Assembly: GCA_902567685.1 (NCBI GenBank)
Contig: CACFNH010000002.1
Span: forward strand, 1 to 64,000
Source of the DNA: an uncultured Pelagibacteraceae bacterium
GTDB taxonomy: Bacteria > Pseudomonadota > Alphaproteobacteria > Pelagibacterales > Pelagibacteraceae
Direction: 5' to 3'
DNA: 64,000 nucleotides
How positions within the stretch are numbered: position 1 is the first letter of the stretch; each line of letters opens with the position of its first letter. The translations under genes and the position numbers were made by a program. Under the pieces are notes generated by a model. It saw only the letters and a list, made by a program, of their open reading frames with translations, made no database searches and had not been told where the DNA came from. Below, piece after piece: positions 8,270-33,112 of this stretch.

Positions 8270-8974
8270 ATGGAAGAAATAACTCAAATCCGAAAGTTGA
8301 GTTTATGGATATTTTTTATCCCTTTAATAGCAATAAATTTATGTCTTTTTATCTCAATAAATTATGACTTATTTGAAAATACTATATTTAGAGTTGATCA
8401 GATAGGTAGAACTGATTTTACAATACCTTACATTGATGGAAGTTTATCCATAAGTAGAGCTTCAAGAACTTATCCAGCCTTTTTGATATTTAAACCAGGA
8501 ATGATAATAACAAGCATTCTCCTGTATTTTTATTGGAAAAAAAATAATGTTCTCGTCAATAAATTTAACGACATTTCAAATAAAAATTATAATTTTAAAA
8601 TTTTCGGAATTTTGTCAGCAATTTTTCTGGCTATTCATGCGTTATTACTAGGAGTAGAAGTTGATCTAAAAGCTTTTAAATTACTTAGACGAATAATACT
8701 TCTGAGTTTTATAATATTTGAAATAGTTGCCCAAGGTCTTTTGGTTTACAATTTTTATAAATTAAAAGAGAAAATAAAAAGTTTTTTTAATACAGCAATC
8801 TTAAGGTGTAAAATTGCTCTTGTTTTTGTTTTGGTCACTGTAGCTCTCGGTAGTCTTCCTATGCTAGTAACTAAAGGAAACGTTCATCTTAAACATGCGC
8901 TTGAGTGGAATTACTTTGTAGGAGTAATAATATTTTATTTATTAACTAGACTATTTTGGATTAAAAAAAGATAA
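8270..8974 (+). CDS. Conserved membrane protein, unknown function
   Basis: A 234-residue protein with about six hydrophobic segments, at roughly 12-33, 68-86, 108-130, 138-160, 178-200 and 212-229. A long extracytoplasmic loop lies after the first. The segment with H209, followed by ALEWN near the last helix, recalls Frag1/DRAM-like membrane proteins, but the match is too weak to name it. It starts 15 bp after the basic-peptide gene and is probably co-transcribed with it. A compact structured region follows immediately. Confidence 0.6.
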   Translation: MEEITQIRKLSLWIFFIPLIAINLCLFISINYDLFENTIFRVDQIGRTDFTIPYIDGSLSISRASRTYPAFLIFKPGMIITSILLYFYWKKNNVLVNKFNDISNKNYNFKIFGILSAIFLAIHALLLGVEVDLKAFKLLRRIILLSFIIFEIVAQGLLVYNFYKLKEKIKSFFNTAILRCKIALVFVLVTVALGSLPMLVTKGNVHLKHALEWNYFVGVIIFYLLTRLFWIKKR

Positions 8975-8982
8975 AACCCACT

Positions 8983-9165
8983 GCTTCTATCCCTTTCAGG
9001 ATAGAAACGTGAAGTTTTGGTTCGTCGTTGTAGGCGCTACCGCCGAACCTACCGATCAACCATTTTAGCGCTACTCAGTTGACCTTTCTGCCCTTTAAGC
9101 TTGGACCTCTCGGTTTTTCCCTAAATGGCCAGTTAAGAGTTGCCTCTTAATTAAAATCATTTGAC
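8983..9165 (-). ncRNA. Candidate structured RNA of unknown class
   Basis: This 248 bp spacer between two genes is visibly richer in G+C than its surroundings and carries at least four helices. They pair 9133-9139 with 9144-9150, 9054-9060 with 9078-9084 (one G-U), 9019-9024 with 9044-9049 (with nested pairing), and 8985-8992 with 8999-9006. On the minus strand the first has a GCAA (GNRA) tetraloop, and the last hairpin is followed by GTGGGTTTTATCTTTTTTT, which resembles termination; this favours the minus strand. I looked for RNase P, SRP, 6S, tmRNA and tRNA signatures and found none. It lies downstream of mnmA on the same strand and could be a 3'-UTR product or an independent gene. Confidence 0.5.
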
Positions 9166-9222
9166 CATATTTAATTAATTTAGTGTATCACTTTATGGTT
9201 GTTTTATTTTACCGTCTGTGGA

Positions 9223-10350
9223 TTAAGTGGATAAATTTTTATTCTCTGTTTTGTGAATCCAGCCTCCACCTAGAACTCGATCTCCATAACTATCTTTTGA
9301 ATAAAAGACGCAGGCTTGGCCTGGTGATATTCCTGTTTCTTTTTCTAGTATTTCAACAGAAGCAAAATTTCCTTTTAACTTAATCTTTGATTTTAATAAA
9401 TTTCCAGTAGATCTAACTTTTATATAAATTAAATCTTCAAAATCTTTTTCTTTTCCTAAAATATTTAAATCTCTTAAAAAAATTTTTTTAACAATTAGTG
9501 ACTCTTTCGGTCCTATTTTTATAGTGTTGGTTTTTGTATCAATATCCACTACGTATAACGGTTCAGAGCTTGAGACTTTGATTCCTCTTCTTTGGCCTAT
9601 TGTATAATTAATAATACCTTCATGTTTTCCAAGTTTATTTCCTTTAATATCAACTATGTTGCCTTCTTTAAAAGACTCTGGTCTAAATTTTTTAATTACA
9701 GAACTGTAATCTCCATTGGGAACAAAACAAATATCTTGGCTATCTGGTTTCTCCGCAACATTAAGTTTTAATTTAGAGGCTATTGTTCTTGTTTCTTGTT
9801 TGTCTATTTTTCCTAAAGGAAATCTCAAATAATCCAATTGTTCTTGGGAAGTACTAAATAAAAAATAACTTTGATCCCTATTTAAATCTTTAGCTCTATA
9901 CATCTTTGCTGTTCCATTATTCTGCATACGAACAACATAATGTCCTGTGATTAAAGCATCTGCTTTTAAATCCTTGGCATATTTAAATAAGTCTCTAAAT
10001 TTAACAGTTTGGTTGCATTGAACACATGGAATTGGAGTTTCGCCTGCTACATAACTATCTATAAATGAGTCTATAACTTCAGTTTTAAATTTTTTTTGAT
10101 AAAATAATATCTTATGTTTAATATCAAGTTGTTCTGAAACTCGTTTAGCATCCAAAATATCTTGTCCAGCGCAACACTGTCTTCCTCCTTCAGGTTTTTT
10201 TATATCGTCGTATAATTTAAGGGTAATTCCAGTAACATTATAACCTTCCTCTTTCATGAGTCCTGCCACAACTGAGGAGTCTACTCCCCCTGACATTGCT
10301 ACAACTACTCTTGTGCTTTCTGGAGATTTTTTTATTCCTAGTGAATTCAT
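9223..10350 (-). CDS. mnmA: tRNA-specific 2-thiouridylase MnmA
   Basis: Catalyses 2-thiolation of the wobble uridine (s2U34) in tRNAs for Glu, Gln and Lys. The 375-residue length is normal. The ATP-pyrophosphatase P-loop SGGVDSS is at about 20-26, the catalytic cysteines are in [12 protein letters not shown] and [10 protein letters not shown], and GHYVVR and IGQRRGI are family motifs. The C-terminal beta-barrel is present, including SPGQACVFY. It is the only gene on this strand between recX and the candidate structured RNA, which lies just beyond its 3' end. Confidence 0.93.
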
Positions 10351-32904: not shown

Positions 32905-33075
32905 TAATAACTCTGCCCATCCCCATCTGTCTAAGTACCTGAGAGATTTACTCCTTCGGTGAGGCAAAGCCTGCTTTCCAGAGTTATTACGGTAACGGTC
33001 CTTTTGCCTGAGAGTTTCCGGGGTTAACGTTGCTCCTTCGGCGCTACTTTAAAGTAGTCTCTCCCGTTACATTGT
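32905..33075 (-). promoter_or_regulatory. Tandem glycine riboswitch upstream of gcvT
   Basis: Read on the minus strand the region has two glycine aptamers. The first has CGGGAGAGAC, GCGCCGAAGGAGCAA and ACTCTCAGGCAAAAGGACCG; its P1 pairs 33064-33070 with 32992-32998. The second has CTCTGGAAAGC, CACCGAAGGAGTAAAT and CTCTCAGGTAC; its P1 is an 11 bp stem pairing 32979-32989 with 32905-32915. The two are joined by a short linker. This arrangement is well known for glycine-catabolism operons, where glycine turns the genes on. A stand-alone terminator is not seen; control of translation is more likely. Confidence 0.93.
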
Positions 33076-33112
33076 AGAGTTTCTTCTAAATATAATTAAA
33101 AGTCAAACTCAA

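Follow-up and report, generated by a model that had tools for sequence, protein, structure and literature searches.

The structured region at 8983–9165 of this stretch of DNA is, with practical certainty, a copy of the IMES-2 RNA (RF02035), and we consider it likely that it forms a small RNA gene of Pelagibacteraceae (SAR11) with its own regulated promoter and an intrinsic terminator. By computation we showed the family identity, hairpins P1–P4, the kissing helix and the terminator hairpin, and also that the promoter elements are conserved, that the gene has moved between contexts and that it is confined to SAR11.

We scanned the window, by which we mean the whole 64-kb stretch analysed, against Rfam 15. 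Two matches only were returned, IMES-2 and a glycine riboswitch. The IMES-2 match lies on the minus strand at 9157–9017 and scores 157.1 bits (E 3.1e-41), about three times the gathering score of 54.7. It runs over model positions 1–141 of 141, is not truncated and has 2 non-standard pair positions marked. Our own, wider covariance model (R1) scores the same copy at 158.5 bits. The preliminary description had matched the region to no class and had suggested a new SAR11 small RNA, naming a clear Rfam match to a known class as evidence against this. The covariance-model search (Infernal/Rfam) gave just such a match. The RNA class was therefore already known, and the window copy is a full-length member of that family; a structured, selected RNA in a SAR11 organism stands, its novelty does not. 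Models of tmRNA, SRP RNA, RNase P, tRNA and 6S did not match at the locus, either in the Rfam scan of the window or in a tRNA/tmRNA search, in agreement with the earlier failure to find signatures of these classes. The glycine riboswitch (RF00504, 79.8 bits; 32986–33076, minus strand) immediately precedes a glycine cleavage operon, whose genes gcvT, gcvH and gcvP were read from frames, an arrangement as in other SAR11. The features of the IMES-2 locus are as follows.

8270–8974, plus strand: converging gene for a 234-aa protein that matches nothing in Pfam or NCBIfam
8983–9008, minus strand: intrinsic terminator hairpin P5, GAAA loop, with a T-rich tail to about 8963
9017–9157, minus strand: IMES-2 RNA core, hairpins P1–P4, predicted 5' end at about 9157
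9019–9049, minus strand: P4 hairpin, loop GUAGCGCCUACAA; 5 of 9 pairs with both-side changes
9034–9038, minus strand: kissing segment of the P4 loop, AGCGC, partner 9067–9071; covariation in the alignment
9054–9083, minus strand: P3 hairpin, loop GAGUAGCGCUAAAAU; 8 of 8 pairs with both-side changes
9067–9071, minus strand: kissing segment of the P3 loop, GCGCU, partner 9034–9038
9087–9132, minus strand: P2 long hairpin, interrupted by internal loops and capped by a GNRA loop (CC-GAGA-GG); fold, and 9 of 11 outer pairs changed on both sides
9133–9151, minus strand: P1 hairpin, UUAAGAG GCAA CUCUUAA; fold and compensatory changes
9164–9169, minus strand: predicted -10 element TATGGT, 7 nt upstream of the predicted 5' end
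9186–9203, minus strand: dedicated promoter element AACAACCATAAAGTGATA (consensus AACAACYANAAGTGATA), its sole zero-mismatch copy in the window
9216–9234, minus strand: tandem DnaA-box-like repeats TTATCCACT-TAATCCACA-G, 19 nt, overlapping the mnmA stop codon
9223–10350, minus strand: mnmA (tRNA 2-thiouridylase; Pfam tRNA_Me_trans, 5.7e-74), upstream neighbour, outside the RNA gene

G+C is 0.42–0.48 across 8950–9149 and 0.19–0.31 in most flanking 100-bp windows, confirming the raised G+C first described. The minus strand of 8978–9180 has a folding energy of -63.4 kcal/mol, whereas its shuffles average -43.4 (z -4.7) and none of 200 is as low. Over the narrower interval 8983–9165 the minus-strand z is -4.1, lower than in all 70 sampled 180-nt plus-strand windows across the 64 kb (minimum -3.97); the plus strand of the region is weaker (z -2.5). 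Five helices follow in series on the minus strand, P1–P4 and the terminator hairpin, with apical loops GAGA (GNRA) in P2 and GAAA in the terminator hairpin, and beyond the last helix comes a T-rich stretch (GUUUUAUCUUUUUUU). Four or more helices in order, a GNRA loop on one of them and a minus-strand T-rich stretch had all been described before and all are present. That the region encodes a structured RNA under selection is borne out by the z of -4.7 together with strong compensatory change.

Compensatory change was assessed in an alignment of 33 diverse IMES-2 members, the structure tested being that of Rfam with an added kissing helix. De novo folding of the alignment with RNAalifold gives P1–P4, 24 of 30 pairs being backed by changes on both sides. 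On the tested structure, 92.6% of cells pair and 30 of 44 pairs show both-side changes. Cells with such changes number 216, compared with 62 in shuffles, and none of 500 shuffles was as high. The alignment test that the preliminary description had proposed is therefore strongly positive. Sliding the partners by one column reduces pairing to 35–42%, a control that is partly favourable by construction because the structure came from Rfam and the kissing helix was picked after the sequences had been viewed; this bias does not extend to both-side changes in separate lineages.

The kissing helix (helix 6) joins the hairpin loops of P3 and P4, in the window through GCGCU and AGCGC. Across the 33 sequences 98.2% of its cells are paired and three of its five pairs have both-side changes, making a loop–loop helix between P3 and P4 very likely on comparative grounds. 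Because most members carry one and the same palindrome (GCGC) in both segments, two molecules could also pair with each other. The shared letters might instead suggest that the repeated GUAGCGC loops form no helix and are a protein-binding motif present twice. We think this improbable, since in four lineages the loops are unlike each other yet complementary: GUGCU with AGCAC in L185, UCGCU with AGCGA in L194, and AGCACU with AGUGCU both in L195 and in L196, L197 and L199. A shared protein motif would not predict loops that differ and still match, and these non-palindromic versions show that what is preserved is complementarity and not the repetition of a motif. L026 and L191 carry AGUACU in both loops; pairing is weakened in three members (L187, L188 and L192).

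The regions upstream of IMES-2 share three elements: a -10-like TATGNT, from whose alignment the predicted -10 of the window copy was inferred, the AACAACYANAAGTGATA element, and the 19-nt tandem DnaA-box-like repeat. A consensus sigma-70 scan of the region found no promoter. In the complete genome G068 the AACAACYANAAGTGATA element is unique, its best match scoring 28.1 against about 18 for the highest in simulated genomes. Of 39 divergent upstream regions, 38 have the tandem repeat, and the mean score is 22.4, compared with 6–9 in shuffled or random genomic DNA controls, although these regions are not independent draws, coming as they do from related genomes if from unrelated gene contexts. 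It takes two preferred positions about 10 bp, or one helical turn, apart. The textbook DnaA box is TTATCCACA, and it is resemblance to this that lends the repeat its name. At the other end of the gene, a terminator scan picked out P5 (9008–8983, minus strand), one of two sites in the region where 0.3 were expected. The P5 hairpin folds with z -6.2, and hairpin and T tail recur in the other genera examined.

IMES-2 does not keep the same neighbours. The window's genus, g9 and g12 have it downstream of mnmA. In g6 it is flanked by tyrosine recombinase and O6-methylguanine methyltransferase (ogt-type) genes, except at a few loci, g6 or unnamed, where it is beside mnmA. In g5 its flanks are SNase and SRAP genes, and in g11 its neighbour is selO. 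Across these unrelated contexts the upstream promoter elements are conserved. Unrelated neighbours in other SAR11 genera, a promoter region of its own and a terminator thus identify a free-standing gene, and because promoter, RNA and terminator are kept while neighbours change, action in trans is expected. We hold with high confidence that IMES-2 is a separate trans-acting gene. The converging 234-aa protein of the window looks membrane-like by eye and occupies the same place in related genomes.

The family is confined to SAR11, within Pelagibacteraceae. Across the order, 200 of 397 genomes match IMES-2, all of them in this one family. In a class-wide sample, model R1 matches 3 of 385 Alphaproteobacteria genomes, again all Pelagibacteraceae, and found IMES-2 in no sampled genome outside SAR11. 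An exact-pattern scan of GTDB contigs returned at least 118 stretches; among the matches listed, 80 of 80 titles are Pelagibacteraceae or Pelagibacterales, which supports a marine bacterial origin. A search of 50,697 phage records gave no match, and phage carriage was rejected. In the single contig labelled viral (L152, 2,149 bp), a DNA methylase frame is fused to IMES-2 at a palindrome, probably through chimeric assembly.

Within the window's genus 26 of 37 genomes carry IMES-2. All 11 that lack it also lack an MnmA match, and of four further negatives three have no MnmA and one a partial match only, so these absences look like missing assembly. Seven near-complete Pelagibacter-like genomes (G062, G063, G066, G067, G070, G072 and G073) yielded no IMES-2 even at permissive thresholds, and loci L241–L243 keep the recombinase and methyltransferase neighbours with no IMES-2 in the interval. 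A divergent copy in the negative Pelagibacter genomes was considered and rejected: the wider model finds none, and the integrase–MGMT interval is without IMES-2. Near-complete genomes of a neighbouring genus that lack the RNA mean that it is dispensable, which in itself gives no pointer to function. Lineages with IMES-2 and near-complete genomes without it provide natural presence/absence pairs.

Two readings deny IMES-2 the status of an RNA gene in its own right. On the earlier suggestion, the RNA would derive from the 3' UTR of mnmA, by processing of that transcript. In favour of this, IMES-2 comes straight after a co-oriented mnmA in 86 of 188 upstream regions, as it does in the window, and the DnaA-box-like repeat overlaps the mnmA stop codon. 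The suggestion is very unlikely, because conserved promoter elements separate the RNA from the mnmA stop codon, a terminator belonging to the RNA itself is present, and elsewhere the same RNA and promoter elements stand beside recombinase and O6-methylguanine methyltransferase, SNase and SRAP, or selO genes. Still less probable is a DNA-level element tied to replication, be it an origin, a DnaA titration site or a terminus/dif site. The tandem DnaA-box-like repeats would fit such an element, as would the gene's place in G068, at the cumulative GC-skew maximum beside an Xer-like recombinase and a dif-like inverted repeat; against it, the covariation is of RNA-structure type and in G032, of the window's own genus, IMES-2 is mid-arm and at neither skew extreme. 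A location at the replication origin, which the repeats had prompted us to consider, was rejected, the gene being on the terminus side in G068 (skew maximum) and mid-arm in G032. The G068 repeat itself, TATTACTATTGATAA-7-TTATCACTAGTAATA, is at about 1,338,540 (L354:18523–18559), about 300 bp from IMES-2 at the skew maximum and directly upstream of the Xer-like recombinase gene. It is probably the chromosome-dimer resolution site, which IMES-2 adjoins in that genus.

The other two readings concern how a free-standing IMES-2 RNA would act. An antisense small RNA that regulates mRNAs through single-stranded loops with the help of Hfq would suit the size, the separate promoter and the U-rich terminator, all reminiscent of enterobacterial Hfq-dependent RNAs. 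Hfq (PF17209), however, was found in none of 27 genomes of the order, several of them single-contig, while controls were positive in 5 of 14 genomes, among them E. coli, B. subtilis and Caulobacter. SAR11 thus seems to be without Hfq, which makes this common route unlikely; the kissing helix, moreover, occupies the most conserved loops. We consider an Hfq-dependent role to have only a small probability. A 6S-like RNA that binds RNA polymerase appears marginally less unlikely. Searched with the 6S model (RF00013), 61 genomes of the order were negative and Caulobacter was positive, so that the role may be vacant, and IMES-2 has the promoter of its own and the reported abundance in the sea that such a role would suit. 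Yet its shape, separate hairpins in series plus a kissing helix, is not that of one long rod with a central bubble, and the sister family has matches to neither 6S nor IMES-2. We therefore rejected replacement of 6S by IMES-2: with both missing from the sister family there is no anticorrelation.

We favour a free-standing minus-strand transcription unit of about 185 nt that would start at about 9157, run from a regulated promoter and end at the intrinsic terminator; strand, ends and abundance of the transcript are predictions. The kissing helix would lock P3 and P4 together in a fold that is compact and rigid. The RNA may act in trans through a bound protein, as an RNP or a decoy, in cells that seem to lack Hfq. 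A factor at the 19-nt DnaA-box-like element upstream would govern how much RNA is made. That the RNA works chiefly by binding protein, for which the absence of Hfq and the structure are our grounds, we rate at somewhat less than even, with the remaining probability divided among 6S-like action, antisense pairing independent of Hfq and other routes. A bolder version is that IMES-2 is a SAR11-specific, Hfq-independent global regulator, locked by its kissing loops, and that DnaA reads its promoter through the tandem repeats and so ties output to replication or growth state. This is a long shot. If true, it would place a growth- or replication-linked RNA in some of the sea's most numerous cells. 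With Hfq apparently missing from SAR11, an abundant structured RNA would need another route, and the kissing helix and promoter elements supply exact mutations for testing.

IMES-2 had not been known outside environmental sequences or linked to a function, and was reportedly described as abundant in the sea. Among the papers searched, the name 'IMES-2' occurs in one, on an unrelated subject, and RF02035 in none. IMES-2 is absent from the motifs listed in a survey of P. ubique (PMC2704228), and a section of a study of HIMB5 (PMC6429828) makes no mention of it.

6S RNA (RF00013) is likewise a free-standing regulatory RNA of similar length, but its fold differs and its covariance model gave no match. 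IMES-1 (RF02034) is also a structured RNA from marine environmental sequences; it had no match among the 397 genomes of the order, but control genomes were silent too, which makes this result uninformative on its absence. The idea that IMES-1 and IMES-2 exclude each other was considered and set aside on the same ground. Between RF02035 and the window RNA there is no family-level difference: hairpin order and conserved loops are identical and the covariance match is full length. What the present comparison adds to IMES-2 is its placement in Pelagibacteraceae, a kissing helix on the Rfam structure, promoter elements, a terminator and a mobile gene context.
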